From assembly GCA_003159495.1 (NCBI GenBank), contig PLPI01000083.1, positions 1 to 53,917 on the forward strand: a stretch of 53,917 nt of DNA, written 5' to 3'. Shown in pieces: positions 1 to 31,220 of this stretch; the first letter of the stretch is position 1; every line of letters starts with the position of its first letter. The position numbers and the translations under genes are program-made. A model generated the notes under the pieces. That model was not told the origin of the DNA. It saw only the letters and a program-made list of their open reading frames with translations, and did no database searches. This DNA is from a candidate division FCPU426 bacterium. GTDB lineage: Bacteria; Oederibacteriota; PGYV01; Palsa-1178.

Positions 1-126
1 ACACCATCGCAAAATTTCCGCGGGCGTAGCTGTAAACGTAGGCGTATCTGCCAGCGCGGATGAGGCAGCCGTAAATATTATTACTGCAAAAAAAAGTACC
101 TCCGCTGAAATTCTTATTTTTTTCAT
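1..126 (-). CDS. Secreted T/P-repeat protein, N-terminal fragment (runs off window)
   Basis: Only the first 42 codons are inside the window. They read as a signal peptide (MKKIRISAEVLFFAVIIF, ending ALA before Asp) followed at once by TPTFTATP. That is the same Thr/Pro repeat style as the large surface protein at 33401-35839. The start is supported by an AGGAGA ribosome-binding site 6 bases upstream. An ECF-like promoter motif (160-184) sits about 35 bases before the start codon and matches the motif in front of the ECF sigma gene at 2204-2788. The rest of the protein and its function cannot be seen. I infer a secreted or surface protein that may belong to the ECF regulon. Confidence 0.7.
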   Translation of the reverse strand, partial: MKKIRISAEVLFFAVIIFTAASSALADTPTFTATPAEILRWC

Positions 127-159: not shown

Positions 160-184
160 GACAGAAACTGCCAAAAAAAGTTCC
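160..184 (-). promoter_or_regulatory. ECF-type promoter motif before the truncated T/P-repeat gene
   Basis: On the minus strand GGAACTTTTTTT is followed, 14 bases after GGAAC, by TCTGTC. The arrangement resembles RpoE-type promoters (GGAAC, about 15-16 bases, TCTGA) and is nearly the same as the motif at 2808-2833 in front of the ECF sigma gene. Confidence 0.5.
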
Positions 185-186
185 AA

Positions 187-1149
187 CTATTTGTTTTGAT
201 CAGCCGCAGCGGCCGTTGTGGTCACATTGTTAAAAAAATCAACATCCACAGATATCCTGTTGGTCTGTCCCAGCACGTCGAAGGGCTGGTATGAATATGA
301 GAACCTCACGCTGTCCATTTTTAACCCGATTCCAAGCGAAACCGACTGTTCTGAATAACGGAATCCATATCCCGCTCTCAGAGATAAAACATTGAATAAT
401 AGCACTTCCGTTCCTATGTCAAGAGTTGGAAGTTCGTCATCCAACAGCAGCCTGTTAACATCCAGTCCAGCAGTAACTTTTGCCTGGTCGCCCATTGGAA
501 ACTTTATCCCCAAACCGGCCTTGATATTTGCCGGGAGCGGGTCCGCAACTGATATATATGCCGACTGACTGCCGAGATTCTGAAGGCTTATTCCGGCAAA
601 TGTGTCCGGATCGGAATTTATTTTTATAAGCACACCCAGGTCACCCGCAACGCCATTTTTTGAGTAGAGATAAAGCTTTGAATCGAAATATTTCAGGTTT
701 ACGCCCGCTGAAAACCAGTCATTGACCTGATATGCGTATGACAGTATAGCCACAAGGTCGTAATTATCCACGTTGCCCACCTGGTCGCCATAGTCGTTAT
801 AATAAGGAAAGTCAAAGGTATAATCCACATAAAAAGCCGCGCCTATCACGCCGTATTTTTTAGGATCAAAGGGTATGGCGCCGGCTAGATACTCGCAGTT
901 TGTATCGCCAAAGGAAGAAAAATGGGTGAATGACGCCTGCGGATATTTTATATTAATCAGCCCGGCTGGATTGAACACAATAGCGTTGAGGTTGTCGGCT
1001 ATGCCGGCAAATACATTTGACATGGCGGCTGTTTCGGCTGGCGGCTCCACCCTTAAAAAATCAGCCCCTGTTTCCCCCGCCGCAAAAACATATAACGGCG
1101 ATAGCACAATAAAAATAAAAACAACTATGAATTTAAATTTTTTTAGCAT
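187..1149 (-). CDS. PorV/UPF0164-like outer-membrane protein
   Basis: A 320-residue protein with a signal peptide (MLKKFKFIVVFIFIVLSPLYVFA) followed by features of the PorV/PorQ/UPF0164 family. The mature N-terminus reads GADFLRVEPPAETAAMSN, then IVFNPAGLINI, the 'NPAGL' signature of this group, followed by alternating aromatic and glycine residues typical of a beta-barrel. The frame stays open upstream to 1320. I chose the ATG at 1149 because the signal peptide begins there, a GAGGG sits just upstream, and a longer form would overlap the anti-sigma gene ending at 1212. It lies 62 bases downstream of that gene and is probably co-transcribed with the ECF sigma/anti-sigma pair. In Bacteroidetes PorV works with type IX secretion; whether it does so here is unknown. 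Confidence 0.7.
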   Translation of the reverse strand: MLKKFKFIVVFIFIVLSPLYVFAAGETGADFLRVEPPAETAAMSNVFAGIADNLNAIVFNPAGLINIKYPQASFTHFSSFGDTNCEYLAGAIPFDPKKYGVIGAAFYVDYTFDFPYYNDYGDQVGNVDNYDLVAILSYAYQVNDWFSAGVNLKYFDSKLYLYSKNGVAGDLGVLIKINSDPDTFAGISLQNLGSQSAYISVADPLPANIKAGLGIKFPMGDQAKVTAGLDVNRLLLDDELPTLDIGTEVLLFNVLSLRAGYGFRYSEQSVSLGIGLKMDSVRFSYSYQPFDVLGQTNRISVDVDFFNNVTTTAAAADQNK

Positions 1150-1211
1150 AATCCCTCGCATTGCAGTATGCTTTCCCTGTAAATACCTTAAAAATTTCCC
1201 CGGAATAATTT

Positions 1212-2207
1212 CTATTTTATAACCGCGGCCTTTATCCTTTTTTCGACAAGGTCCGTCTTTAAATAGACAAAATAAATATCGGCCCCGGCAACGGCTCCGC
1301 TGTCGCACGCGCCGTTCCACGACTGTTCATAAATCCCGGGCTCTCTAAAACCCCTGAACAGGGTCTTAACCGCCTCACCTTTTCTGGAGTAAACAATAAT
1401 ACTTACGTCGGTTCCGGTTTTGATCTCATATTTTATCTTCATTGAGCCGCCAAGCAAAGGGTTAAAAACATTGGACATCACCTCGAACGCGCCGTCCATT
1501 TTAGCGCCCTTAAATGCCACGGCTGTCGGCGTTTCAGCCGGGTTAGACGCGGCCGACATCCGGCCATGATTTGATGCCGCGTCCGGTGAATTAATATTTT
1601 TCCCCGCCGAATTTAAGGCCGCAAACGGAGCGTTCCCGTTTTTTACCGGACCTCCGCCGGCCCCTTTATCAACATTTTCATCCGGCAGCGCCGCAATTAC
1701 CACAGAAGCCGTCTTTTGAGAATCATCTTTTTTAATGCTGTCCGGCCGTACCGCATTGACGGCAGCCGCAATTTTTACCGGCGCTTTTTTCACCTGGGCC
1801 ATGCTTCTATCATTAAAATCCGCCCGCTTTGCGTACTGCATAACAGCGGGTTTTGAAGCCGTTACAACAGCCCTTTTTTCAAAATTACCATGCAGTAAAA
1901 TTACCGCAAATACGAGCGCCGCGGCGGCAGCTGCGCCTTTAAGGGCAAATCCCGTATCCGGCCTGGCTCCGAATATCCTGTCCAAAAGCGAGGGGGAAGG
2001 CACGCCTATTTTTTTCCAGACCTTTGAATTAAAATCGGCGGGAATGGCTGTTTTTTCCACGCATAAAAGCGACTCTTTTAAAACAACCGCGGCTTCAAGC
2101 TCTTTTTTACATGAAAGGCATTCCCCGGCGTGAATCAGCATATCCCTGCCGGGTTTTTCCCCTTCCATGACGCCGTCTATGGCTTCCCTGAATTCGCGGC
2201 AGTTCAT
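1212..2207 (-). CDS. Anti-sigma factor with zinc-finger and C-terminal FlgD-like Ig domain
   Basis: 331 residues. The N-terminus has the zf-HC2 anti-sigma pattern (Cys3, His26, Cys30, Cys33). One membrane segment follows at about residues 90-107, then a low-complexity Ala/Pro/Asn-rich linker. The last 90 residues form a FlgD-like Ig domain (VYSRKGEAVKTLF, GADIYFVYL, ending KRIKAAVIK). That ending closely parallels KKIKFAVIK at the end of the surface protein at 33401-35839, so the two domains look homologous. The start codon overlaps the sigma gene stop by four bases (ATGA), as expected for a sigma/anti-sigma pair. The protein probably sits in the inner membrane, holds the sigma factor through the zinc finger, and exposes the Ig domain outside the cytoplasm. 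The Ig fusion is unusual for an anti-sigma factor. Confidence 0.8.
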   Translation of the reverse strand: MNCREFREAIDGVMEGEKPGRDMLIHAGECLSCKKELEAAVVLKESLLCVEKTAIPADFNSKVWKKIGVPSPSLLDRIFGARPDTGFALKGAAAAAALVFAVILLHGNFEKRAVVTASKPAVMQYAKRADFNDRSMAQVKKAPVKIAAAVNAVRPDSIKKDDSQKTASVVIAALPDENVDKGAGGGPVKNGNAPFAALNSAGKNINSPDAASNHGRMSAASNPAETPTAVAFKGAKMDGAFEVMSNVFNPLLGGSMKIKYEIKTGTDVSIIVYSRKGEAVKTLFRGFREPGIYEQSWNGACDSGAVAGADIYFVYLKTDLVEKRIKAAVIK

Positions 2208-2788
2208 AATTTGTCACCGTTCCTTTTTAAAATAATTTCCCTTAATTTAAGCCTCGCCCTGTTCAGCCTCGATTTCACGCTTCCAAGCGGTATCCCGAGC
2301 ATGGCGCTTATTTCATCATATTCAAATCCCTGCATATCCCTGAGCACTATCACATTCTTTGATTCCGTGTCAAAGCCGTCAAGGGCGGCCATTATCATGC
2401 TGTGCGTTTCCGCGGCTTCTAGAGCCTCGTGGACTCCTGCTGTTTTATCCCTTATCTGCACTTCATATTCTTCCCCTTCGGCTCCCGCCGTAAGAGAATC
2501 GGTAGCGAAATACTTCCTGCGCTTTAACATATCTAGCCTGTTGATGCACATATTGACCGCCACCCTGTAGAGCCATGTAGAGAACTTTGACTTATGCTCA
2601 AATTTATCCATTGACGTATAAGCCGCGCAGAAAACATCCTGGGCCATATCAAGGGCCTCTTCCCTGTTGCGCATATATTTCATGCAGATACCGGAAACAA
2701 CCTGCCTGTATGCCGTTATAATCCTGTCAAAAGCGGCTTTATCGCCCTTTTGCGCTTTCTTTACGGTTTCAATATCTATTTCCTGCAT
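2204..2788 (-). CDS. ECF-family RNA polymerase sigma factor
   Basis: 194 residues with sigma region 2 (about residues 25-95, including EALDMAQDVFCAAY and FSTWLYRVAVNMCIN) and region 4 (about 135-185, with FEYDEISAMLGIPLGSVKSR as the helix-turn-helix). Regions 1 and 3 are absent, which defines the ECF class. It is followed by its anti-sigma factor with a four-base overlap and then by a PorV-like barrel. An RpoE-like promoter lies 20-45 bases upstream (2808-2833), suggesting it transcribes its own operon. The RBS is GAGGGAG, spaced 5 bases from the ATG. The identity as an ECF sigma factor is firm; the signal it responds to is not known. Confidence 0.92.
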   Translation of the reverse strand: MQEIDIETVKKAQKGDKAAFDRIITAYRQVVSGICMKYMRNREEALDMAQDVFCAAYTSMDKFEHKSKFSTWLYRVAVNMCINRLDMLKRRKYFATDSLTAGAEGEEYEVQIRDKTAGVHEALEAAETHSMIMAALDGFDTESKNVIVLRDMQGFEYDEISAMLGIPLGSVKSRLNRARLKLREIILKRNGDKL

Positions 2789-2807: not shown

Positions 2808-2833
2808 GTCAGATTCCCCGCTAAAAAAGTTCC
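2808..2833 (-). promoter_or_regulatory. ECF-type autoregulatory promoter
   Basis: Minus strand: GGAACTTTTTT, 15 bases between GGAAC and TCTGAC. This is close to the E. coli RpoE consensus (GGAACTT, 16 bases, TCTGA). It is placed correctly to start a short leader before the sigma gene at 2788. Confidence 0.6.
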
Positions 2834-17472: not shown

Positions 17473-20046
17473 TTAATTTCCTCCTGTTGCGACTAATCGC
17501 TCTATCGCTTTTTCATAATTGTAATTTTCTTCCTTCAATACCCGCGCCTTTATGGGCGCGTCGGTCTTGTTAGTTGTGGCAATCCAGTTTAACGGCGGGT
17601 TGGGCCTTATCTTTACCAGGTTGGACCCAAGCTTGCCAAACTTCACAAACGCGTCTGAATATTCCCCTTTTACCTGGTCAAGTGAGCCTATCAGGGCCTT
17701 TTCCTGGTCGTTTAGGTCCAGATTCTTCTGTATATTGCCCAGATCAGCATCGGATTGTTTAAAAAGGATAAAATTTTCGACATTTTTAAACAGTTGCGCC
17801 GCATCCGGGTTGTTCATGAAGTCCGACATCTGCTGTGTGGCAAAGGCACATACAAGCCCCATATGGCGCGATCTCTTCGACAAATTAAGCAGGAACGTCA
17901 CACCAGCGGCGAACCTGGCCAGCGTCCAGGTTTCATCAACCATGAGTAGTTGCTTTTTGCCCCGCTTCTTATTCTGCTTGAATTTTTTTGTTAAAAAGGT
18001 GCTGATGATGTAGACGGCAAGAGATTGTAAATCCTCATCTTCCGGCAATCCTGACGTGTCAAACACTATAAACGAGGCAGATAGATCAATGTTTGTTGCA
18101 CGGTCCGTGAATTTTGCGTATTGGCCATTTTTAATATAACTGTTTAATTTTTCGGAGATCTCCAATATTTGTATTTTCCAATCTGCTTTTTCTTTTACCA
18201 TACCCGCAAAAGTCTTGCAAAAATCAGAGAGTATCGGCGTTGTTTTCTGGTCGATTTTTCCGTCTTTCACTTTCATATATCCTTTATATGTCTGTGCTAT
18301 CGCCGTTTCTATCAACGACCTTTCCAACTGCCATGCGCTGGCCGATTCACTGCATAGTATGGTTTTAAAAAATCCAACAATTTGAGCGATTTTATTTGAT
18401 GTTACCATGCCGTCAATGTTTATGTCGTTATCATTGCTGGTGGCGTCAATGAGATCTTCGTCAAAATCTACGCAGTCAAAAATGTTTACGGAATATTTTC
18501 CTTCAAGGTCAAGGGCCAGATATTGCCCCCCCTGCATATTACATAAAAACTCGTATGACTTGCTTTTGTCTACGATAAATACATCATGGCCCCAGGCACC
18601 GAGATTGGCAAGTATTGTATTAATTGAAAATGATTTTCCGGAGCCGGGAATACCCATAATACACATATTGCCGTTCGTAAAATCCTCGCTCCATGGATAA
18701 TAATAGATGGGCTGGTGCAGTTTATTACAGCCAAGAAACGCCCCACCTTCGGTCGTTGAGGAGTCAAATGTAAAAAAGTCAAAAGTTGATATTGCATCAT
18801 CTGTTGATACCGTATAAGAATGTCCTCCATAATTTACACAAAACGGCAATGTGGATTTAAAGCATTTCATCTGCTCGTATGCACCCTTCCAGAATGGTAT
18901 TCCCTGAAAAATTTGTTTTACAAATGCTATACTATCCGACAGATTTTGTTTGCTGCTTTCCATAAGCGTAATATACAAGCCAAATTTTAAAAAACTGATC
19001 TGTCCGGCCGCTTTACGCTGTAATAGATTGTCGTATTTTTTCATCAAATCTTCAGTTGCATAATTCTTTATGAATCCTGAATTTTGGGAACTCGCAACCT
19101 TAAGTTCTTTTTCAAGACGTTTTTTCACGTTGTCCTGATTGATACCTTCAAAAATAATAGACATTCTGTACGGCCGATGTAAATACTGCATGGATTTTAA
19201 AAATCCGGCCATACTGGTCATGGGGAGGTCCGAAATGTATATCGTCTGACAAAATTTATCGCCTATTTGCAGATAATCCTTATTGCGTTCAATGGCCGTA
19301 CGCGCAATTGTATTTGACGACGTATATACAGCGTCAATGTTCCCGGCATCGTCGTTTATGCAGTCTTCCACCAGGTGAATGATTTCCTCTTTTTCCAGGG
19401 GCCTTAAATTTCCGAACCGCCTCATATTCGATAAAAAAGCTGTTTTATTTATATCCAAAAAATCCTTGTTCTTGATCATTGTTTTTGTGGGATCGGTTTC
19501 ATTACCGGCCAAATCCTGTAAACTCACGCGGTCATATGCATATAAAATATAATATTCATAATCATATACGTTATTGATCTTCACAAATTCATCGAGCCAT
19601 GCCCTTAAAAACCGGGGATATTTATTTTTAATGTAATTGTCATTTAGCGTATTGCTGATTTTTTCCGCAAGTACCGTATTTTTATCCATAAGCGCGTTGT
19701 TTAGTTCCTTTTGTTTTTCTTCACGGGCCGCCGAAGTTAGCTTGTCATATAGAGTCATACGCGCCGGCAGGTCATACGGTCTGGTTTTAATAAGTATTTG
19801 TACCTTCTCACCGGTTACCAGGGCATTTAAAATTCCCTGATAAGTCGCAAGACTTGATTGTACGCTGTGTGTGTCAATAGTATCTGGGTTGGTTGTCGGT
19901 GTTAATTTGTATATGGCCACCGGCCGGACCTTATTAATGATTAAATGTCCTTCTATGATGTCCGTCATATCCTCGATTAAAGCCTTTGCCTGGCCATATA
20001 ACGGCTGTTTTTCTTTAGTATTTGTCTTTATCTTGATCTGGCTCAT
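17473..20046 (-). CDS. virB4: VirB4/TraC-family type IV secretion ATPase
   Basis: 857 residues, cytoplasmic face of the inner membrane. The N-terminal about 400 residues form the CagE/TrbE-VirB domain. The motor domain has Walker A IMGIPGSGKSFSINTIL (about residues 461-477), a conserved YPWSEDFTNGN just before it, Walker B KQLLMVDETWTLA (about 697-709), and SKRSRHMGLVCAFATQQMSD downstream. VirB4 powers substrate or pilin handling and is the most conserved part of type IV systems. The start overlaps the VirB3-like gene by 32 bases. No second motor (VirD4 or VirB11) is encoded nearby. Confidence 0.92.
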   Translation of the reverse strand: MSQIKIKTNTKEKQPLYGQAKALIEDMTDIIEGHLIINKVRPVAIYKLTPTTNPDTIDTHSVQSSLATYQGILNALVTGEKVQILIKTRPYDLPARMTLYDKLTSAAREEKQKELNNALMDKNTVLAEKISNTLNDNYIKNKYPRFLRAWLDEFVKINNVYDYEYYILYAYDRVSLQDLAGNETDPTKTMIKNKDFLDINKTAFLSNMRRFGNLRPLEKEEIIHLVEDCINDDAGNIDAVYTSSNTIARTAIERNKDYLQIGDKFCQTIYISDLPMTSMAGFLKSMQYLHRPYRMSIIFEGINQDNVKKRLEKELKVASSQNSGFIKNYATEDLMKKYDNLLQRKAAGQISFLKFGLYITLMESSKQNLSDSIAFVKQIFQGIPFWKGAYEQMKCFKSTLPFCVNYGGHSYTVSTDDAISTFDFFTFDSSTTEGGAFLGCNKLHQPIYYYPWSEDFTNGNMCIMGIPGSGKSFSINTILANLGAWGHDVFIVDKSKSYEFLCNMQGGQYLALDLEGKYSVNIFDCVDFDEDLIDATSNDNDINIDGMVTSNKIAQIVGFFKTILCSESASAWQLERSLIETAIAQTYKGYMKVKDGKIDQKTTPILSDFCKTFAGMVKEKADWKIQILEISEKLNSYIKNGQYAKFTDRATNIDLSASFIVFDTSGLPEDEDLQSLAVYIISTFLTKKFKQNKKRGKKQLLMVDETWTLARFAAGVTFLLNLSKRSRHMGLVCAFATQQMSDFMNNPDAAQLFKNVENFILFKQSDADLGNIQKNLDLNDQEKALIGSLDQVKGEYSDAFVKFGKLGSNLVKIRPNPPLNWIATTNKTDAPIKARVLKEENYNYEKAIERLVATGGN

Positions 20047-20314
20047 TATTCTCTCCCGGCATATAAATTTTAGGCGATCTTAAGCTTTCAAAAAAATTTA
20101 AAAAATATCCGTCCGGCAAATTCTGTGATAATTTCACGGCTACAATCACGTTTGCCGCAAGGAACATAAAAAAAATGAACGCTGTCAAAAAATTCTTGAA
20201 TATGCCGTAAAATATGAACGCAATTATTACGTCAACAACAACGCCGCCGGCAATCCACATAATATGCGTGGACGTAAACCCTCCAAGAATTTCCGCTTCC
20301 TTGTCAATATTCAA
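20015..20314 (-). CDS. VirB3/PrgI-like small membrane protein
   Basis: 99 residues with two adjacent membrane segments (about 19-40 and 45-63) near the N-terminus and a short polar tail. The start NIDKEAEILGGFTSTHIMW and the tail DGYFLNFFESLRSPKIYMPG resemble VirB3/TraL/PrgI proteins, which sit directly upstream of virB4 in most type IV loci. It begins with TTG, supported by AAGGAG six bases upstream. The 32-base overlap with the VirB4 gene fits tight coupling. Identity rests on topology and position more than on sequence. Confidence 0.72.
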   Translation of the reverse strand: MNIDKEAEILGGFTSTHIMWIAGGVVVDVIIAFIFYGIFKNFLTAFIFFMFLAANVIVAVKLSQNLPDGYFLNFFESLRSPKIYMPGENNEPDQDKDKY

Positions 20315-20324
20315 TTTTTTCTCC

Positions 20325-21965
20325 TTAACCTATAAAGTTTTCAGGCATAATTGTGGCGGAGCCGTCATTAGGATGTGTTGAACCGCCGCCTTTTGAATTG
20401 CGTATTGCTTTAATAATATCATTAGCCCCGCTTCTGAAAGTCGCACCCAGTGAACTTCCGGAGCCAAAGCCTCCAGCGGCGGCAGTATAGGCAATATCCT
20501 TAGCCCTGCCCATAGACTGTGAAAAAACTTCTGATTTTTTTTCACCTCCATTTCCGCCATTTCTATCGCCACCGCTGCCGCCAAACCCGGTAAGTTTGCT
20601 CATATCAGGAAGAAAACCGGCACCATTTATAACTCCACCGGCAAAAGGCGCGGCTCCTAAAGCCGGAGGAAGCGTCATGGCCGCAGGCATGTCCGCAACT
20701 GTGCCGGCACTTCGCAGCATTGACCCAAATTCACGCGAGCCTGACTGTGCTATTTTCAAAAACGTATCACCACCGGTGAAAAATTCAACCAATTTGCCGA
20801 CCTGTGTCATCAGCATGAAAACTCCAAAATACATCATCAATTTTATTATCGACGGCAATCCCGCCCCGGTTGCAGTAGTACCCAGCGTGAGGTTGCTCAA
20901 AGATATTGCGAACAAAAGCATAAACAATAATCCCCAGACAAACGAATACAGGCAGGTGCCGACAAAAGATTTAAACCAGCGCACGAACATATCCCATCCG
21001 GATAAAATCGTCAGTGGAATTATTAAAATACCGAGAAAATAAGCCAAAAACAACTGGACCAGTTGCATTCCTTTTAATAGCAATATCTTAACAATGAAAT
21101 AAATAAATATGCACGAAACAAGCATTTCAACAACTATGCCAACCCAGAGATGCACCATGCCCGCGGGCGTTGAATAAATTGTGTCAATTTCCGGAAATGT
21201 CAGGTTGTGTGTGCTTGAAATCAGATTAAGCGTGTCCGGGTCGTTGGTAAGCGTGGCCGCAAAATTATTGCCGAGACTTGATGTTGTTATGTTTGCAATG
21301 TCAAAACCCATATATCCCAGCACGTGTGAAAAAAGCTGTATTACAACGCTATACAATAGCGAATAGCTTATTATCAAAAATACAACTATTGTAAAATAAC
21401 CAACCAGCTGTACTGGACTTTCGTTTTTAAACAGTCCCGTAACCAGTTTTAAAACTACAAAAATGTAAAGAAAAACTCCAACAAGCGTGTATAAAAAAGG
21501 CATTACTGTGCCTGATATATAATTTACAGTGGCAGCACCCACTCCAATATCAATTGTATTTGTTACCGATTTTGTTATAACCACACCGGTTGTTGCGTCG
21601 GTTGTGTGTTGTGTGCCGCTATAGTCAGTTAAACTTTGACCTGTGCTAATATCCCAGAGCCTCAACAGGCTCTCGCAAAGCATATTAAAAGCGCTGTCCA
21701 CGAGCGATTCAAAGGCATTTTTAATTATCACGGCCGCTTTGGTAACATAATGCTCCACCATATTTACACCGCAGGCGTTGGAGAACCATTGCAGTGCCTC
21801 TTCCATACCCTGTGCAATCCAGTTGGATGACTGTTTGTTGTTGGATATTTGTGCCGACGCAGGCACGGGCGTTGCGTTTGTCGTGTCGTCCGCATAAATT
21901 GCAAACGGTGCGAATAATAACAGCAGCAAACAAATTATTTTGACCGGATAATTTTTTATCATCAC
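20325..21965 (-). CDS. VirB6/TrbL-like polytopic membrane protein
   Basis: 546 residues. A cleavable signal sequence (ending FAIYADD) is followed by an amphipathic stretch and about six to seven membrane segments between residues 150 and 405. A Gly/Ser/Ala-rich, polar tail of about 140 residues completes it (GFGGSGGDRNGGNGGEKK). This is the layout of TrbL/VirB6 proteins, which form the inner-membrane channel part. It sits between the pilin-like and VirB3-like genes as in many type IV operons. The start may be the GTG at 21965 or the adjacent ATG at 21962. Confidence 0.75.
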   Translation of the reverse strand: MMIKNYPVKIICLLLLLFAPFAIYADDTTNATPVPASAQISNNKQSSNWIAQGMEEALQWFSNACGVNMVEHYVTKAAVIIKNAFESLVDSAFNMLCESLLRLWDISTGQSLTDYSGTQHTTDATTGVVITKSVTNTIDIGVGAATVNYISGTVMPFLYTLVGVFLYIFVVLKLVTGLFKNESPVQLVGYFTIVVFLIISYSLLYSVVIQLFSHVLGYMGFDIANITTSSLGNNFAATLTNDPDTLNLISSTHNLTFPEIDTIYSTPAGMVHLWVGIVVEMLVSCIFIYFIVKILLLKGMQLVQLFLAYFLGILIIPLTILSGWDMFVRWFKSFVGTCLYSFVWGLLFMLLFAISLSNLTLGTTATGAGLPSIIKLMMYFGVFMLMTQVGKLVEFFTGGDTFLKIAQSGSREFGSMLRSAGTVADMPAAMTLPPALGAAPFAGGVINGAGFLPDMSKLTGFGGSGGDRNGGNGGEKKSEVFSQSMGRAKDIAYTAAAGGFGSGSSLGATFRSGANDIIKAIRNSKGGGSTHPNDGSATIMPENFIG

Positions 21966-21973
21966 AATACCCG

Positions 21974-22318
21974 CTACTGCCAGCCGTTGGTAATGTTATT
22001 TACTCCGGTGTTCAATTCCGCGCCCTTAAACAAAAACGCGCCGAGCAAGGCCCAGGCAATCGCGCATATTACAATGGTCCAGAGCGCGTTTTTAACCATT
22101 TGATCGCCCTTTATATCACCCGAGTTGCGTAAATGCAGGCCCCACATCAGGTAACCTACCGAACTTAAAGTAACTATACCGGCAATAATTCCTACAACCC
22201 ATTTACCGTATGCCATAACATTCTGCATGTATGAATTTGAATCCGCAAAAATAGCCGAAAAAATACCAAGAACAAAAAGCACTGTCAGAAACAAAACTTT
22301 TTCCATTTTTACCTTCAC
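21974..22318 (-). CDS. VirB2/TrbC-like pilin
   Basis: About 114 residues. A signal peptide ending AIFA-DS precedes a mature protein of about 85 residues with two hydrophobic helices (YGKWVVGIIAGIVTLSSVGYL and NALWTIVICAIAWALLGAFL) joined by a short polar loop. That is the VirB2/TrbC pilin plan. I chose the GTG at 22318 because AGGAG lies seven bases upstream; a TTG at 22324 is too close to the RBS and an ATG at 22306 has a weaker one. It may polymerise into a pilus or act as a conduit subunit. Confidence 0.75.
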   Translation of the reverse strand: MKVKMEKVLFLTVLFVLGIFSAIFADSNSYMQNVMAYGKWVVGIIAGIVTLSSVGYLMWGLHLRNSGDIKGDQMVKNALWTIVICAIAWALLGAFLFKGAELNTGVNNITNGWQ

Positions 22319-22332
22319 TTTCAATCTCCTTT

Positions 22333-23322
22333 TTAATTATTATTTACTGCTTTTACGTCCGTACTGCTTTTCTGTATTGTAGTTGCCCCGGGATTTGAAC
22401 TGCCCACAACCTGTGTTGGGCCCGCAACGGCTGATGATGAAGAGCTTGTCGCGGGATTAATAACTGGTGTTTGACTGACTTTAAATGAGGCTGTTATTGA
22501 ATTTGAAGTTGCGTTTACGTAAGTATTTATTCCTGTGGCAATCTCTGCCCCAGTGCCTGAATCGCTAATAGGTGTATTATTCAACCAGCAGGTTACCATA
22601 TTGCTTATCATTGGCCCTAAAGACCCGCCCATAATGGTTCCCAGCGTAGTGCCCAACGGCCCAAAAATTGAACCCAGCGCGGCCATAAGAACCTGCATTC
22701 CGGCACTTGACAAGACGGGTAAAACAGAATCGAGAAATCCCTTAAAAAACTGTGAAAAGGGACTTAAAGCGGCTGTTTCGGAAGTTGTCGGTTTATACGA
22801 AGTATCAACCGGCATGGTTGTTGCTGCACACGCGGCTATATTTGTTGCCGTCTGCTGGGCGGAAATCGTGTCCCCTGTAGAAACATAGCCTGATTCAGCC
22901 GCAAGGCTTGTTGCCAGAGGTTGATAATTCGGTACTCCGGAAGCTTTTAAATCAGCGGCCAGGGACGCCATTTGTGCCGCTGCTGATAGCTGCATTGATG
23001 TCCCGATAGCTGAAGCCGCGGTTTGCGCCAGCGCGGCTATAGCTTCCGCTATTTTACTCATGGTATAAGGGCTCTCGGCCGTCTTTCTATAGTAATTCGC
23101 GCCCAATCCCGATGTCTTATATTCGCTGTATGCGCTTCCCTTTTCCTGATAAATTGCCGCGTCAGCGCTATTATTCGGACCCTTTGCATTCTGCAGTTCT
23201 TTTAACGCGTCAAGAGTCTGATCCTTTGCGGCCTGTAAATTATCCTCAGTCGTTGCCGCAAAAGATAAGACCGGTATCAGGGTCAACAGTCCAACAAGTA
23301 CAAGCGATAATACTTTTTTCAT
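22333..23322 (-). CDS. Secreted protein of unknown function in the VirB-like cluster
   Basis: 329 residues. A clear signal peptide (MKKVLSLVLVGLLTLIPVLSFA) is followed by an Ala/Ser/Gln-rich helical region, a hydrophobic Gly-rich stretch at about 195-245 (GSIFGPLGTTLGTIMGGSLG) and a Ser/Thr-rich tail. Two Cys residues lie around the hydrophobic part. The position immediately before the pilin gene is one where VirB5-like minor subunits can occur, but I see no specific signature. The hydrophobic Gly-rich segment could insert in a membrane or drive oligomerisation. A GGGAGG RBS supports the start. Confidence 0.7.
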   Translation of the reverse strand: MKKVLSLVLVGLLTLIPVLSFAATTEDNLQAAKDQTLDALKELQNAKGPNNSADAAIYQEKGSAYSEYKTSGLGANYYRKTAESPYTMSKIAEAIAALAQTAASAIGTSMQLSAAAQMASLAADLKASGVPNYQPLATSLAAESGYVSTGDTISAQQTATNIAACAATTMPVDTSYKPTTSETAALSPFSQFFKGFLDSVLPVLSSAGMQVLMAALGSIFGPLGTTLGTIMGGSLGPMISNMVTCWLNNTPISDSGTGAEIATGINTYVNATSNSITASFKVSQTPVINPATSSSSSAVAGPTQVVGSSNPGATTIQKSSTDVKAVNNN

Positions 23323-23338
23323 TTTTCCTCCCTATTTT

Positions 23339-23917
23339 TTATTGCGCAGTTTTAACCACGTCTTTTTTATACAGGGCAATAATCTGCGGCTGTATTTCAC
23401 CGTCAATATTTGTCTTTAATATCATCAGATATATTGGACTATAAGCATAATTTATACGTATGGGCGCATCAGGGGCCTTGATATCGCTTAAATAGCCTGT
23501 GTACACATCCATTTTCCTGCCGTTATCACGTATTACAAGTCCCTCAACCGGATTCTCTGATTCAAACGTCACATCAAAGTACTGTTTCCCGGGATATTCT
23601 ATGACCTCGGCTTTACAATTTCCCCATGCTGTTGATGCTGAAAAATTGTAAACGTTTGGTTTTGTCGGAACGGTAACAACCGCTGCCGCCTGCTGTTTAG
23701 ATGCAGTTTTTTGCGCTTTCCTGCCCTGCCTGTGCACGATTTTTCCAATTACGGCTTTTGGCGCGGGCGGAAGGCGCTGTGCCCTTTTCGCATTTTCTTG
23801 TTTGTACATTTTGGCCATGTCCCAGATTTCGTCCTTTTGTAACTGTAAGGACTCATCACCGGCATAAAGCAATGATCCAACAAAAAGGGCTGTAACGATT
23901 ATTAACAATTTTTTCAT
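23339..23917 (-). CDS. Secreted beta-rich protein of unknown function in the VirB-like cluster
   Basis: 192 residues with a signal peptide (MKKLLIIVTALFVGSLLYAG), a basic, helical linker (about 20-80, rich in Lys/Arg/Gln) and a C-terminal domain of about 105 residues that looks mostly beta (CKAEVIEYPGKQYFDVTFES, PIYLMILKTNIDG). One could compare this with the N-terminal domain of VirB9/TraK, the outer-membrane-associated ring protein, but the similarity is too faint to assign. It lies between the secreted protein at 22333 and the barrel gene at 23939, so a periplasmic linking role is a reasonable guess. Confidence 0.65.
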   Translation of the reverse strand: MKKLLIIVTALFVGSLLYAGDESLQLQKDEIWDMAKMYKQENAKRAQRLPPAPKAVIGKIVHRQGRKAQKTASKQQAAAVVTVPTKPNVYNFSASTAWGNCKAEVIEYPGKQYFDVTFESENPVEGLVIRDNGRKMDVYTGYLSDIKAPDAPIRINYAYSPIYLMILKTNIDGEIQPQIIALYKKDVVKTAQ

Positions 23918-23938
23918 CTTTGCTCCAAATTTTTGTCT

Positions 23939-25105
23939 TTAATACTCATATCCTATATAACCATACCAGCTCGGCCCGCCGCCCGGAGCGCCGTTGAATT
24001 GCAGGCTTTCCGGTGCGTATACGTTGCCCGACCCGTAAACCGTTGGAACGCCATTAACCATGATGTTATGAAAAGTAAAATCATTATTGGCGTTTGAAGC
24101 GGCCAATCCATAACGGAATTTATCGATTGTGTTTTTTATTACAAAAAACCATGGGGCTGTTTCAGGATTAAAACCTTCTGATAGCGCCGACACCAGGGGA
24201 AATTGCATTTCAAAAATAGCGGTATCAACCATAAACAGCCATTTTTGAAAACTATGCAATTCAAGCCCGGCCGCCATTACGGATGTCTGCTCCGTCATGT
24301 CAGTGTTTAGTATCCCGAAAGACGCATTAATTTTTACATGTCTCATAATATCCGTGCTTGCGGATATATCAATACACGGATTGCCCGATAAAATTGAATA
24401 ATCAAAATATTCTGTCGTTCCTGTGCCAATATTACAGATAATTTGCGTTGGATTCTCAAATACATCCGAACTAAACCTTAATTGCCACAAATAATACTCC
24501 TGATATCCGTTATAAGTAGTATATGCATTGTCAAACATAGTTGGGAAATAATAGAAAGACAACGCAATAATTGGAAGGTCAAGTTCTGATACATCCGGCA
24601 CTCCGGCCTTCAGGTAAAAAGGAACAGTAATGCCGATTAAATCCAGATATCTTTGCCCGGCCGTGCAATACGGTCCAAAATAATTAAGTGTTGAAATTGT
24701 TTTAGTCAATTCCTCACGCCCGGCCGTAAATGTAAACCACTGCCCTACATAGCTTATTTTTGCCGTCATTAAATTTATATCAACCGGCGTGTTGCTGTTT
24801 GAAAAAGGTTTAACAAATCGAATATAACTTTCAGCCGTAAAATTATTGAAAAGAGTTTGTTTTGCCTTTATTCCAAGCTCACTGGTGTACTTATTGCCCC
24901 AGCCGTCTTCCTGAAAGGTGCTTTTAAGATCGTAAACAATCTTTGTTGCCATACTGGCGGAAACATTAGTATTTTGTACCGTCTGTGATATATCGTTTGT
25001 TGCCTGCGCCGTGGGCGTGGAGGGTTGTGCTGTTGGTGTTATGTTGTCGGCGTATAAAAGTGATGTGCTACATAATAGTAACACTAACCATTTAATTATT
25101 TTCAT
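23939..25105 (-). CDS. Predicted outer-membrane beta-barrel, copy 1
   Basis: 388 residues. A signal peptide (ends SLLYAD) and a Thr/Pro/Gln linker lead into a porin-like barrel of alternating polar/aromatic strands, ending YIGYEY with the terminal aromatic residue typical of BAM substrates. It is a clear paralog of the product of 27589-28794: both contain ELTKTISTLN followed by FGP and CTAGQRYLD, then an FYLKAG, a YYFPTMF and a YAPE segment. Two barrels encoded within a type IV-like cluster are not part of the standard VirB set. I infer an outer-membrane component or pore. No named family recognised. Confidence 0.75.
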   Translation of the reverse strand: MKIIKWLVLLLCSTSLLYADNITPTAQPSTPTAQATNDISQTVQNTNVSASMATKIVYDLKSTFQEDGWGNKYTSELGIKAKQTLFNNFTAESYIRFVKPFSNSNTPVDINLMTAKISYVGQWFTFTAGREELTKTISTLNYFGPYCTAGQRYLDLIGITVPFYLKAGVPDVSELDLPIIALSFYYFPTMFDNAYTTYNGYQEYYLWQLRFSSDVFENPTQIICNIGTGTTEYFDYSILSGNPCIDISASTDIMRHVKINASFGILNTDMTEQTSVMAAGLELHSFQKWLFMVDTAIFEMQFPLVSALSEGFNPETAPWFFVIKNTIDKFRYGLAASNANNDFTFHNIMVNGVPTVYGSGNVYAPESLQFNGAPGGGPSWYGYIGYEY

Positions 25106-25117
25106 GTTTTACCTCAA

Positions 25118-26296
25118 TTATTGTATTTGTGTTCCGTTGACGTTCCCGACATTGGTCATATAAATTGGACCAGTACCAGTGTTACTTGTAAAATAAGGAA
25201 AAACAAACCGCATTTTGATAATATTGTTGTTCAAATCATCAACAAAATTTACATCAACATACGGCACAGGCTCCCACAATGATAATTGATTAGGTGGGCT
25301 TTCCGCGCTTTGATGATTTGGCCCTTGTCCTGTAATAGTAATAACAGAGCTTACCACGGACACCGTGCTTGTTAAAAATGCGGGCCCCGAACTTACACCA
25401 TAACCAACTATTATAGGAGTAAGACTGCTCGGCACAAATGAACCTGTTATAAAAGGTGCAAAATTATAAAGTTCATAAGTTTCGCTGGTGTCCCATTCAG
25501 TTCCCGCGCCGCGCGAGGTCGTTGAGGTAAATGTTATTGATGTGTATGTAAAGGCAGATATGCTTGCCGTCCAGCTTTTGGTAACCGCTTGTGTTGGCGA
25601 GGTTAATGTAAATGCAGAACTTACTGCTTTAACCCAAATATTAAAATTTGTACCATAGTCAGTTTCAGCATCTTTAAAATAAAGTGTTATTGTTGCAACA
25701 TCTCCGTTGTTTACAAGCGTACCTAATCCGTTGGTTGTGCTCACCGTATAACTGACAACTGCTGGTGATGATAATATATTGGAAGGGTCGGACAATACTG
25801 TGACCGTATATGTCATTGGAGCAGGTGCTGTTAAAACAGCCTGATAAATTAATTGATTTGCAATAATAGGTACATTGTTAGTGCCACTAACCAAATTTAA
25901 AGAAATTGAACCTCTTCCTCTGTTAATGGCGGTAAAAGTTGTTGATGTCGTGTCCACATTATAGTTTGCCTCTAAATAATTGTTACTTGCTCCGACATCT
26001 GCAAGCCAAATTCCCTTAGAATGTAAATTTTGGAAAGTAATTGCCCCGTTTGTGTCTGTAGTTGCATCAATTACTTGTGCTGGTACAACCTGGGTCGGAG
26101 AATGCATTATAATGTTTGTATTTGCTTGCGGTGTGCTTTGTGTATACAAATAGAACTGATAGCTGTATTCAGGTGTGGGCGTTCCGTCGTTTGCGTCCAC
26201 CGGGCCGTTAGGACTTGACCTCTTTTTACAGCTTACAACGGACAGTAACGACAAAACTAAAACGATTGCAAAAATTAAAACTAAAATCTTTTTCAT
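25118..26296 (-). CDS. Lipoprotein A1 with transthyretin-like N-terminal domain
   Basis: 392 residues. The lipobox ends SVVSC with Cys23, followed by KKRSSPNGPVDANDGTPTP. The next about 90 residues resemble a carboxypeptidase-regulatory or transthyretin-like Ig fold (TTDTNGAITFQNLHSKG). A Thr/Ser-rich beta domain follows with YTVSTTNGLGTLVNNGD and VATIT, shared nearly word for word with the product of 26353-27567. It is probably an outer-membrane or surface lipoprotein. It lies 12 bases upstream of barrel copy 1. The signal-peptide DNA and leader resemble those of the lipoprotein gene at 31221-32036, suggesting cassette duplication. Confidence 0.75.
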   Translation of the reverse strand: MKKILVLIFAIVLVLSLLSVVSCKKRSSPNGPVDANDGTPTPEYSYQFYLYTQSTPQANTNIIMHSPTQVVPAQVIDATTDTNGAITFQNLHSKGIWLADVGASNNYLEANYNVDTTSTTFTAINRGRGSISLNLVSGTNNVPIIANQLIYQAVLTAPAPMTYTVTVLSDPSNILSSPAVVSYTVSTTNGLGTLVNNGDVATITLYFKDAETDYGTNFNIWVKAVSSAFTLTSPTQAVTKSWTASISAFTYTSITFTSTTSRGAGTEWDTSETYELYNFAPFITGSFVPSSLTPIIVGYGVSSGPAFLTSTVSVVSSVITITGQGPNHQSAESPPNQLSLWEPVPYVDVNFVDDLNNNIIKMRFVFPYFTSNTGTGPIYMTNVGNVNGTQIQ

Positions 26297-26352
26297 TTTG
26301 TTTCTCCCTTGAATTTATGGCCTATTATTTGTTCATCAATTTTTTTTAAAAT

Positions 26353-27567
26353 TCATGGTATTTGAACCCCTTGTACAAGACCTGAATTATACCAATAAAA
26401 AGGCCCGTTTTGAGCGCAACCACAAGTCCATGTTGATGATGATGTTGTATATAATGGATTTGTAAAACGCATTTTAATTACATCACGCGATTGTTCGTCC
26501 GTAAACTGTACGTCCACATACGGAAGTGTATACATATGATTAATTTGCGTAGTGTTGCCCGATGAATAATTAAGTTGTTCGCTTTGCCAAACATCATCAC
26601 TGTCATACGATGTTGTCATTCCTGTAATTTGATTGCCCGCAGGCCCAGATCCTATTACCTGTGGAAAAATTGCTGTTGGTATAACAGGGCCTGTTATATT
26701 GTACATAAAATTAGTAAATTGGCACGACTCTGCAACCGTTCCATTAAAATATAAAGTTTGTACAGCAACCGATCCGGTAAAAATCTCCGAATAGTATGTA
26801 TAGCAGGCAATGTCACACGTCCAGTCTTTTACAATAGCCATTTTTGATGTTGCAATTGTATATTTATTATTACTTGCCGTAAGCCAAAAGTTAAATCCGG
26901 AGCCGTAGTCATTTTCCGCTGAAGTAAAAGATATCGTAATTGTCGCCACGTCGCCATTGTTTACAAGCGTACCCAGTCCATTGGTTGTACTTATTGTGTA
27001 ACTTACCGGCAATGCTCCTGCCGCTGTAAATGTGCAATCGGATGACAGCGATATATTATAATTCATTGGCGCAACAGTAGACAGCGTTGCTGTATACACC
27101 AAGGTATTGGCTATGATCGGTATATTACTGGTTGTGTTTGATGAGCCTTTTAACGTAAATGTTATTGTGCCAGGCCCTCTATTAATAGCTGTAAACGTTG
27201 TTGTACTTGTATCGATACTATAATTGCCTTCCAAATATCCGTTGCTTGCGCCAACATCCATATTCCACACGCCGCGCGCATGCAAATCCGCAAAAATTCC
27301 CGAACCATCCGGATTAGTATACAAAGTAATTGATTGCGTTGGCACCGTTCCGGGTTGAGACGACATTGTAACAAGCGTATTTGCTTGCGGGGTTCCCTGT
27401 GCATACAGATATAAATTATAATTATAATCCGGCGTTGGTGTTGGTGAGGCTATGCCCGCGTCTATAGCACTCGGACCGCCTGGATTTACCCGTTTTTGAC
27501 AACCCACTATAGATAACACTGACAAAACAAAGATAATTATAAAAACCGAAACAAAAAACTTTTTCAT
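26353..27567 (-). CDS. Lipoprotein A2, paralog of A1
   Basis: 404 residues. Lipobox ends SIVGC (Cys23), then QKRVNPGGPSAIDAG and TPTP. Domain order matches A1: an N-terminal Ig-like domain (YTNPDGSGIFADLHARG), the segment TFTAINRGPGTI, then YTISTTNGLGTLVNNGD and VATITI. The two proteins are obvious paralogs with divergent C-termini. The ribosome-binding leader (AAGGGGGAACAAA before ATG) is almost the same as that of the gene at 31221-32036. It follows barrel copy 2 by 21 bases. Likely an outer-membrane lipoprotein working with one of the barrels. Confidence 0.75.
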   Translation of the reverse strand: MKKFFVSVFIIIFVLSVLSIVGCQKRVNPGGPSAIDAGIASPTPTPDYNYNLYLYAQGTPQANTLVTMSSQPGTVPTQSITLYTNPDGSGIFADLHARGVWNMDVGASNGYLEGNYSIDTSTTTFTAINRGPGTITFTLKGSSNTTSNIPIIANTLVYTATLSTVAPMNYNISLSSDCTFTAAGALPVSYTISTTNGLGTLVNNGDVATITISFTSAENDYGSGFNFWLTASNNKYTIATSKMAIVKDWTCDIACYTYYSEIFTGSVAVQTLYFNGTVAESCQFTNFMYNITGPVIPTAIFPQVIGSGPAGNQITGMTTSYDSDDVWQSEQLNYSSGNTTQINHMYTLPYVDVQFTDEQSRDVIKMRFTNPLYTTSSSTWTCGCAQNGPFYWYNSGLVQGVQIP

Positions 27568-27588
27568 TTTGTTCCCCCTTGAAAATTT

Positions 27589-28794
27589 TTAATATTCATA
27601 CCCAACATATCCATACCAGCATGGCGCTCCGCCGGGGTTTGCGCCATTGAATTGAATTCCTTCCGGCGCGTAAACGTTGCCTGATCCGAATGGCGGAACA
27701 AAGTTCGGGTTGTAAGAAACCAATGAATTAAATGTGTAGTCGTTGTTTGATGTTGTTGCGGCCAGACCATACCGGAATTTTCCAATCTTGTTCCTTACTG
27801 AAATAAACCACGGAAATTTTTGCGGATCAAATCCTGCTGCAGCACCCTGTATAAAGGGCATCTGGGTCTCAAAGATTATTTCATCAAAAGCAAAAATCCA
27901 TCCCTTGAAATTATGTAATTCAATGCCACCTGCTATTACGGACGTATCATTAAATAGAGATGTATTTAGAACACCACCTGATAAATTTATTTTAAAATGA
28001 TTTCCTAAATCTGTACTCAAAGAAATATCAATTGCCGGATTTGTTGACAGGATAGAATAGTTAAAATAATCAGATGTGCTTTTTCCAACATTTAGTATCA
28101 GTTGCGATGGGCATTTTGCAATCTCTGCGTTTGCCCTGACCTGGAAAAGGTAATATTCCTGACTGCCGTCGTATGATGTATGCAAGAAGTTGAACATAGT
28201 AGGAAAATAATATGCCGATAATGCCAACGGCGGCAAATCTATTTCTTCAAGCTCTGGTATGCCGGCTTTAAGATAAAAAGGAATTGTGAACCCAACAAAA
28301 TCCAAATATCTCTGTCCTGCGGTACAAAACGGCCCAAAGAAATTAAGCGTTGATATTGTCTTTGTCAATTCCGCCCTTCCTGCCGTTATGTTAAAGTAAT
28401 TATTCACGTACTGGAACTTTGCGGTTAAAACTTCCGTGGTAACAGGTAAATTTTCATTAGACATAGGTTTATCAAACCGAATATACGCTTCTGCCAAAAA
28501 ATTATCAAAAAGTGTCTGTTTTGCTTTCAACGACAATTTATTTGAGATCACCTGCCCTGCGCTGTCTTCCTGATAGTCGGTTTTAATATCAATAGAGTAT
28601 TTCGTGGCCGGTGCTGATGTTGATGATATAGATTGCACTGTAGCATCCGCCGGCGGCGTTTCAGTTACAATAGCCGTAGCCGTTGCTGTTACGGCTAAGG
28701 CTGTTGATGTAACTGCCGCTGGAATTGTTTTTGCAATTAAGCTCGTTACAAATAGTGAATTTAAAATAAACATAAGCGTAACAAATTTTTTCAT
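27589..28794 (-). CDS. Predicted outer-membrane beta-barrel, copy 2
   Basis: 401 residues. The signal peptide is followed by a longer Thr/Ala/Ser linker than in copy 1, then the same barrel domain: QEDSAGQVISNKLSLKAKQT parallels the copy 1 segment with KYTSELGIKAKQT, and FGPFCTAGQRYLDFVG parallels FGPYCTAGQRYLDLIG. It ends YVGYEY. Conserved and variable stretches alternate as expected for strands and loops. The order of transcription is barrel 2, lipoprotein A2, lipoprotein A1, barrel 1, so the duplication is not a simple tandem of the pair. Confidence 0.75.
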   Translation of the reverse strand: MKKFVTLMFILNSLFVTSLIAKTIPAAVTSTALAVTATATAIVTETPPADATVQSISSTSAPATKYSIDIKTDYQEDSAGQVISNKLSLKAKQTLFDNFLAEAYIRFDKPMSNENLPVTTEVLTAKFQYVNNYFNITAGRAELTKTISTLNFFGPFCTAGQRYLDFVGFTIPFYLKAGIPELEEIDLPPLALSAYYFPTMFNFLHTSYDGSQEYYLFQVRANAEIAKCPSQLILNVGKSTSDYFNYSILSTNPAIDISLSTDLGNHFKINLSGGVLNTSLFNDTSVIAGGIELHNFKGWIFAFDEIIFETQMPFIQGAAAGFDPQKFPWFISVRNKIGKFRYGLAATTSNNDYTFNSLVSYNPNFVPPFGSGNVYAPEGIQFNGANPGGAPCWYGYVGYEY

Positions 28795-28807
28795 TTTTAA
28801 ACTCTCC

Positions 28808-30043
28808 TTAGTATGAAAAATCTGGTAGTTCTAGAGCAGTTAAAACCATATTAAATCCATCATCGTTAAAAAAACGAATTTTAAATCTTAAATCCGTCCA
28901 GTTTTCGTTAAATGATAATGTACCAATTGCATTAACCTCATATACAATGCCATTATATAAATCCATTGTGTTAGGTACATAAAAAAAATTATTTATTGGG
29001 CCAGTAAACCACGTTAGAGTTCTGCCCTGTTCGGATGGTATTACCCAATAAGTTCCGGAAGTTGTAGCCGCGCCAAAATTAATAGCTCCGGAAGTTACCG
29101 AACTTGTCAGAGAAGTCCATGCATTATTTTGGTAATATTGGACGTCTACTATTTGTATTTTTACAGGGATGCTGTCCGGAAAATTTGTATGATCAATTAT
29201 CTGTGTGTCAGTCCCGATATTGCCACCCGTGCCAACTCCACCGGTTGCATTAAGACACAAAATAAAATGAAAATAATTGTTATATGATAAATCATAAGAG
29301 TATCTTATGGGAATTTCATTTCTGAAATTTTGATATTTAAGCCTAAAGTTCCATCCTTGATAAAGAGCATATCCGTTTATTGTATCTCCGACGGGATATT
29401 TGTAACCTAAAGTTATTCCCCAAGCAGTAAAAGTTAAAGGCGCATAATAATATCCTTGCTGATAATATTTAGGCGTTTGTATAGTTAAAGTTGACGTATC
29501 ACCGTTGTTTGTTACACACGACGGTGTAAATTTCCAATTAAATGACGGTGGCAATCCATCAACCTCAAGACTTAGCGGGCGCTGTGTGGTTGTAATATAT
29601 TTTACATGATAAGTAACTGTGTTTGGTATACATGTAAATACATTAACTGATTTTGGATCAAGCGTCATGTCCAATGAAAATACCCCGCGATCTATAACAA
29701 CAGGCATCCAGTCTTTTGTAATATTAATGTTATACGTCAAAGGACTGGTAAAACCATTGGCTATGTCATCAGGCATTATAAGATGATGTATACCAAATCC
29801 ATTAACCATTAGCATTAAATAACCATTACTATTGGTGGTTCCGCCGGCAGCGTCAATGGTCATATAGACAGGTGTTGCCACAGGTGTCCCACAATTAAGG
29901 AGTGTAATACCGACATGCACAGCGGGCGCCGGTGTAGGTGTTGCATCACACGGTCCTCCTGGCAGTCCTTTTCTTACACATGCGTTTGTTGATATAATTA
30001 TAATCGTTAATAAAATAACAACTAAATATGCTTTTTTAGTCAC
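28808..30043 (-). CDS. Lipoprotein C2
   Basis: 411 residues, GTG start with GGAGATTAAT just upstream. The lipobox ends STNAC (Cys22), followed by VRKGLPGGPCDATPTPAP. The N-terminal domain contains TTNSNGYLMLMVNGFGIHHL and an NNGDTSTLTI stretch that echoes NNGD-VATITI of lipoproteins A1 and A2, so all four appear to be one extended family. It is closest to the next gene upstream (30053-31219), sharing IPDDIA/IPNDVAHGFT-type and GDTISGYALYQ/GDTINGYALYQ segments. The DNA here is visibly AT-rich compared with the flanking housekeeping genes. Function unknown; surface or outer-membrane location inferred. Confidence 0.72.
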   Translation of the reverse strand: MTKKAYLVVILLTIIIISTNACVRKGLPGGPCDATPTPAPAVHVGITLLNCGTPVATPVYMTIDAAGGTTNSNGYLMLMVNGFGIHHLIMPDDIANGFTSPLTYNINITKDWMPVVIDRGVFSLDMTLDPKSVNVFTCIPNTVTYHVKYITTTQRPLSLEVDGLPPSFNWKFTPSCVTNNGDTSTLTIQTPKYYQQGYYYAPLTFTAWGITLGYKYPVGDTINGYALYQGWNFRLKYQNFRNEIPIRYSYDLSYNNYFHFILCLNATGGVGTGGNIGTDTQIIDHTNFPDSIPVKIQIVDVQYYQNNAWTSLTSSVTSGAINFGAATTSGTYWVIPSEQGRTLTWFTGPINNFFYVPNTMDLYNGIVYEVNAIGTLSFNENWTDLRFKIRFFNDDGFNMVLTALELPDFSY

Positions 30044-30052
30044 ATTAATCTC

Positions 30053-31219: not shown

Positions 31220-31220
31220 A

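Follow-up and report, generated by a model that had tools for sequence, protein, structure and literature searches.

An extracytoplasmic function sigma factor pathway linked to type IX-like surface proteins in a candidate division FCPU426 bacterium

We describe a sigma factor operon at one end of a 53,917-nucleotide stretch of DNA (hereafter the window), which is the entire contig PLPI01000083.1 (C105). The contig belongs to a genome bin of 3.05 Mb and 97.8% completeness from a candidate division FCPU426 bacterium. The operon encodes an extracytoplasmic function (ECF) sigma factor, a single-span anti-sigma factor and an outer-membrane barrel of the PorV family. It is well supported that this pathway is wired to surface cargo like that of the type IX secretion system (T9SS). 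A link between the ECF pathway and surface-protein export had been proposed in an earlier note made from the letters of the window, and it is upheld by the conservation of the operon, by a promoter and the genes downstream of it, by the match between anti-sigma and cargo tails, by the membership of the barrel in the PorV family and by the presence of a SprA homologue. Moreover, the best explanation for the terminal domain of the anti-sigma factor is that it would mimic the C-terminal domain (CTD) of T9SS cargo and dock on the export route. That the transmembrane module thereby couples the transcription of surface proteins to the T9SS-like route by which they are exported is a reading we hold with somewhat better than even confidence.

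The operon, its relatives and its promoter

All genes of the operon lie on the minus strand. The ECF sigma factor (2204..2788) is a protein of 194 aa in which Pfam recognises sigma regions 2 and 4 only (Sigma70_r2 E=2.8e-16, r4_2 E=1.6e-12), with a TIGR02937 match of 108 bits. Its gene overlaps by 4 bases with that of the anti-sigma factor (1212..2207), a single-span protein with a C-terminal T9SS/FlgD-like immunoglobulin (Ig) domain that was recognised by its zinc-finger motif, its transmembrane (TM) segment and its adjacency to the sigma gene. Next comes the PorV-family outer-membrane barrel (187..1149), a candidate dedicated carrier. Its start had been placed at GTG 1320, which we revise to ATG 1149 as the most likely position. 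The barrel scores 156 bits against NF033709 (cut-off 90), its profile matches the solved PorV structure 6h3i at E=1.3e-19, and the two best PDB fold matches of its AlphaFold2 (AF2) model are PorV of T9SS complexes (8gl6_F and 6h3i_F). By score and fold it is a member of the PorV/PorQ family. It is not a canonical PorV or PorQ equivalog, scoring 58.7 against a cut-off of 250 for NF033710 and 92 against 220 for NF033711.

The sigma gene, anti-sigma gene and PorV-like barrel gene described in the earlier note are confirmed, but the operon does not stop at three genes: a fourth follows (1..126), of which only the 5′ part is present at the contig edge. Its translation begins with a signal peptide that leads into a T/P-rich repeat (DTPTFTATP), as in a surface protein, and its counterpart by synteny in relatives is a protein of 1325-1455 aa with the same CTD subtype at its end. 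Contig C79, which carries a 5′-open T/P-rich gene ending in this CTD subtype, was considered as the continuation of gene 4; the contig ends do not overlap and it is kept as a possibility only.

The comparison set comprised the source genome and its relatives (FCPU426/Goldiibacteriota-related); those traced by means of the phosphorylase gene next to the operon include bins that bear the labels candidate division FCPU426 and Candidatus Goldiibacteriota. A search there for the same operon, as the earlier note had suggested, was fruitful. In total, 29 anti-sigma genes encoding both a zinc finger and a terminal CTD were collected. A sigma gene adjoins 28 of these, and a PorV-family gene lies no more than three genes away on the same strand at at least 22 of the 29 loci, several of which are on contigs that end too early to show such a neighbour. 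The module is kept across several families. In the type A layout, which is that of the window, the sigma, anti-sigma and PorV genes are followed by the surface protein of 1325-1455 aa ending in a CTD, and in the type B layout a LacI-type regulator, PorV, sigma and anti-sigma genes are followed by a surface protein of ~1270-2160 residues. The source genome has one type A locus (the window) and one type B locus (C118). Two of its nine ECF operons encode a CTD anti-sigma factor and exactly the same two have a PorV-family neighbour; the remaining seven have anti-sigma candidates lacking a CTD, and no PorV neighbour.

The LacI-type regulator (L040:11003-11998 and the type B loci) has a very conserved N-terminus, MRVTIKDIAKKVGVTPATVSMVINN, and precedes the PorV, sigma and anti-sigma cluster of type B wherever the contig shows the region clearly. 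In deeper-branching relatives (L314, L315 and L316) the CTD anti-sigma pair is found beside a multi-span membrane protein of 1135 aa and also beside a 3-dehydroquinate dehydratase-like gene.

An ECF-type promoter motif, GGAAC-N15-TCTGAC (2808..2833, minus strand), lies 19 nt before the sigma ATG and is found at the same place in relatives. A second copy, GGAAC-N14-TCTGTC (160..184, minus strand), precedes gene 4 and is likewise kept before the cargo gene in relatives. In most type A operons, comparison of upstream regions revealed the same motif, in its general form GGAAC-N14/15-TCTG(T/A)C, before the sigma gene as well as before the cargo gene; by this comparison no comparable sigma promoter was recognisable in type B operons. 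Since the motif sits at the autoregulatory position before the sigma gene, we infer that it is read by the sigma factor.

Across 14 genomes GGAAC-N14/15-TCTGTC occurs in 58 copies, against 19 for the reversed control, and in the source genome in 7 against 0. Twenty-four copies are within 50 nt of an ATG that has a ribosome-binding site. Five of these stand before the sigma gene, and each of the other 19 is followed by a gene whose product begins with a signal-peptide-like stretch or in the manner of a lipoprotein. Of these 19 exported-type genes, nine end in a CTD, and in three more cases the next open reading frame (ORF) is a CTD protein. As the motif was derived from genes of the operon, the operon copies are not independent; the independent copies in the source genome are those on C104, C79, C98 and C56. 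A copy on C97 was set aside for lying inside an ORF, as was a perfect copy at C118:3196-3221 (plus strand) with no evident downstream gene, which may belong to a small RNA or be a decayed site.

The terminal domain of the anti-sigma factor

The anti-sigma factor is composed, in order, of a zinc finger, a TM segment, a variable low-complexity linker of ~130 residues and a conserved C-terminal domain. The zinc-finger signature, H26/C30/C33, is invariant in eight orthologues; zf-HC2 matches three of eight members, the window protein itself not among them. The predicted TM helix (residues 87-105; 1893..1949, minus strand) is the hydropathy maximum and has an equivalent place in all orthologues. 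The C-terminal cargo-like Ig domain (residues 241-331, NVFNP...AVIK; 1215..1487, minus strand) was recognised with AF2, Foldseek and family profiles, AF2 modelling residues 236-331 as a seven-strand Ig fold at a pLDDT of 93.6. Foldseek places FlgD (3osv) first. The next matches include the CTDs of PorZ (5m11), PorU (6za2) and RgpB (7pq4) and the CTDs of substrates solved in complex with the T9SS translocon (8glk_D and 8gl6_D); unrelated Ig-like domains are among the matches as well.

The window protein matches FlgD_ig of Pfam at E=4.5e-4 as a whole and at E=5.3e-5 as the domain alone, both under the curated cut-off, and the domain alone is without an NCBIfam match. At E<=0.01, FlgD_ig matches all 28 aligned anti-sigma and cargo domains, CHU_C, which is a T9SS signal family, matches 22 of the 28 and TIGR04183 matches 16. 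Profile comparison, moreover, shows the anti-sigma domain to be homologous to generic cargo CTDs that the same genome encodes (hhalign probability 99.3). It ends the protein in every anti-sigma orthologue that is visible to its C-terminus, and because of this constancy its likeness to cargo CTDs is not due to chance. The earlier description of an anti-sigma factor with an external FlgD-like Ig domain ending KRIKAAVIK stands. The structure predictions did not reveal unrelated folds, the anti-sigma domain matching FlgD and T9SS CTDs and the barrel matching PorV.

FlgD and the CTDs of the T9SS are closely related Ig domains between which sequence by itself does not decide; the decision falls to position, neighbours and regulon. 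In the T9SS, a type A CTD directs the export of proteins that carry a signal peptide. The anti-sigma factor is not such a protein: where its cargo homologues have their signal peptide, it has a cytoplasmic N-terminal domain followed by a TM anchor. In agreement with the claim that no anti-sigma factor of such composition has been described, a search of open-access papers returned none with a T9SS or FlgD-type domain.

We scored ~60 terminal domains of the source genome with a profile built from type A anti-sigma domains only. Besides those of the two anti-sigma proteins, the best CTDs are on C104 (86 bits), C98 (68 bits), C97 (64 bits) and C79 (63 and 59 bits). The promoter motif is carried by C104, C98 and one of the C79 genes, so that this comparison, also suggested at the outset, puts the CTDs of promoter-bearing genes among the closest to the anti-sigma domain. 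The domains on C104, C98 and C79 have NV[IF][ND]P at the start, where YPNPF is usual, and in most cases K.AVI[RK] at the end. In a tree of CTDs, all anti-sigma CTDs and most CTDs of regulon cargo fall into one clade (local supports of 0.82-0.94, moderate because the domain is short), and this clade adjoins the CTD protein whose gene directly follows that of SprA. That anti-sigma genes acquired CTDs many times over and independently was considered but is not supported: there are only 4 label changes on the tree, compared with a shuffled mean of 24, which makes an old acquisition with little exchange the likelier history.

Kinship with the last domain of the surface protein at 33401-35839, on which the earlier note had drawn, is real (TIGR04183 38.9 bits). 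However, that domain is of the canonical YPNPF type and is not the closest relative. This protein was therefore rejected as a special counterpart of the anti-sigma factor, closer cargo domains being those on C104, C98 and C79.

The export machinery

In most of 26 genomes a SprA/Sov homologue is recognisable by TIGR04189 segments in colinear order, and intact SprA genes in relatives encode ~1880-2170 residues. In the source genome SprA is split over the ends of C21 and C51, the parts scoring 74 and 109.5 bits against a cut-off of 200 set for the whole protein. At L211:2146-4173, fibronectin type III domains are in frame with an N-terminal SprA segment. Directly after SprA, most relatives examined encode a CTD protein of ~975-1495 aa (L210:4452-7700; L379-L383, L385 and L387). 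Since a C25 peptidase domain is present in only three of the 26 genomes, this CTD protein could be a functional counterpart of PorU.

The source genome contains 39 TIGR04183 matches, and 21 of its 30 PorV-family matches have a same-strand CTD match within 2.5 kb, where 1.9 would be expected. The CTD gene mostly lies just upstream of the PorV-family gene, and in the window it is the anti-sigma gene that holds this position. The likeness to the T9SS consists of the SprA homologue, the many PorV-family barrels and the dozens of CTD proteins, and type IX-like genes are thus present. One difference lies in the ~28-30 cargo-paired PorV-family genes, as against the one general PorV that serves type A substrates in Bacteroidota (PMC12635249). 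The multiplied PorV-family genes are spread over many contigs of the source genome (e.g. C45, C135, C109, C81, C98, C18 and C139), a layout as if each cargo had its own PorV-family carrier.

A tethered cargo mimic and the alternatives

We propose that the ECF sigma factor would transcribe its own operon (sigma, anti-sigma and PorV-family barrel) and that additional copies of this promoter would let it also transcribe genes for secreted proteins, often with a terminal CTD. The zinc finger of the anti-sigma factor would hold the sigma factor at the inner membrane, and a long flexible periplasmic linker would present a CTD of the subtype found on regulon cargo. Tethered and not exportable, this mimic may engage the cargo receptors, namely the PorV-family barrel of the operon and the SprA translocon. 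If it engages the same receptors as cargo, its occupancy would distinguish free carriers from cargo-filled ones. Release of the sigma factor would probably occur by regulated proteolysis of the anti-sigma factor by an RseP-type protease; an M50 protease is encoded in the source genome, and likewise in all 14 control genomes. Were empty carriers to activate the sigma factor, the module would form a homeostatic loop; were docked carriers to silence it, the module would act as an integrity sensor.

Parts of this arrangement are familiar from known systems. In flagella, the FlgM-FliA (sigma-28) pair likewise couples an anti-sigma factor to an export apparatus, and the genes for the cargo of that apparatus are transcribed by the sigma factor. 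FlgM is a small soluble protein that a type III apparatus exports intact, whereas the window anti-sigma factor is membrane-anchored, has an ECF partner and would act on a T9SS-like route. In FecA-FecR-FecI, an outer-membrane barrel, a single-span anti-sigma factor and an ECF sigma factor are encoded together; the barrel of the window is of the PorV/FadL type and not TonB-dependent, and the outer domain of its anti-sigma factor is a CTD-like Ig domain. The outer sensor domains of RsgI are related to domains of the proteins secreted under its regulon. RsgI/SigI of Clostridium thermocellum also resembles the window module in having a transmembrane anti-sigma factor with an outer sensor, several paralogues and proteolytic release (PMC4711584, PMC12203970). 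However, RsgI outer domains sense polysaccharide in a Gram-positive bacterium, whereas the domain here is of an export-sorting type in a diderm.

A parallel to the proposed contact comes from Porphyromonas gingivalis, where CTDs, that of PorA included, are bound by PorV, and where PorA lies upstream of SigP, the sigma factor of the T9SS (PMC7712824), which makes contact between the anti-sigma CTD and a PorV-family barrel plausible. In the PorA/PorXY/SigP pathway an ECF sigma factor likewise controls T9SS genes (PMC7712824). There the CTD belongs to a surface protein that is secreted on its own, a two-component system activates the sigma factor and no anti-sigma factor bears a CTD; in the window module, by contrast, anti-sigma factor and CTD form one polypeptide and the cargo itself would be the regulon.

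How diderm bacteria balance the production of surface cargo against the capacity of their outer-membrane carriers is poorly known, and the T9SS regulation that we located in the literature concerns Bacteroidota only. If true, a tethered cargo mimic would represent a self-contained circuit in candidate phyla in which an export-signal domain serves as anti-sigma sensor, with promoter and regulon predicted. Moreover, promoter and CTD subtype together would give a sequence handle by which the surface proteins of uncultured lineages could be assigned to pathways.

Several observations weigh against such a mimic. In the T9SS as known, PorV takes CTDs after their passage through SprA; a membrane-tethered CTD must therefore enter SprA or meet PorV otherwise. 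The CTD sequence matches FlgD at least as well as T9SS CTDs, and so a generic Ig role is possible. Three type D loci, which are deeper-branching (G014, G025 and G028), show no PorV-family neighbour in view. The cargo adjacent to type B operons has another CTD subtype (the L040 cargo scores 7.8 bits with the type A profile), hence mimicry is not one-to-one everywhere, and the operon promoter of the window is off by one base (TCTGAC). Lastly, of SprA, PorU and GldM, which were searched for as T9SS homologues in line with the earlier note, SprA alone was found: no C25 peptidase, and thus no C25-type PorU, was found in the source genome, and no credible match to GldM in the 26 genomes. Energisation would therefore differ from that of the Bacteroidota system, and we call the route T9SS-like instead of canonical.

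A more specific version of the mimic is a FlgM-like checkpoint with membrane-tethered decoy cargo. Here, SprA and the dedicated PorV carrier, when free, would catch and pull the terminal domain, leading to proteolysis and switching the sigma factor on so that more cargo is made, and cargo-filled carriers would leave it off. We regard this as possible but doubtful.

The main rival remains a generic Ig module, drawn from the pool of CTDs, that binds a periplasmic ligand, chaperone or protease, such that cargo would be regulated and export not sensed. It gains from FlgD_ig being the strongest family match, from the type D loci and from the precedents of ligand binding by anti-sigma factors, namely RsiV with lysozyme (PMC5014341) and the biomass-sensing SigI/RsgI (PMC4711584). 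Set against these are the CTD subtype common to anti-sigma factor and regulon cargo, the place upstream of a PorV-family gene, which fits the genome-wide pairing of cargo and carrier, and the retention of the start and extreme C-terminal motifs, as in export signals. We consider a generic sensor unlikely.

Alternatively, the CTD, stably docked on the barrel, could bridge the membranes and keep the sigma factor off, so that loss of barrels or damage to the membrane would release it and the surface layer would be rebuilt. Such a sensor of envelope or outer-membrane integrity would agree with the presence of the barrel gene within the operon in types A and B, with the position of type A barrel and cargo genes downstream of sigma promoters and with a ~130-residue linker that could span the periplasm. 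Nevertheless, the motif genes encode surface proteins and lipoproteins, and nothing points to chaperone or BAM-type genes among them; we judge this explanation improbable. That the neighbourhood is coincidental, with the sigma factor controlling other genes and the CTD unrelated to export, might be read from those motif copies that fall in coding sequence or lack a nearby gene, but is very improbable indeed given an operon conserved over several families, a motif kept at both promoters and the exported look of all 19 well-placed non-sigma genes.

Elsewhere in the window, 17473-31237 holds what, judged by eye, is a conjugation/type IV secretion-like cluster (VirB4-like ATPase and TrbL/VirB6-like membrane protein), after which come duplicated barrel and lipoprotein genes.

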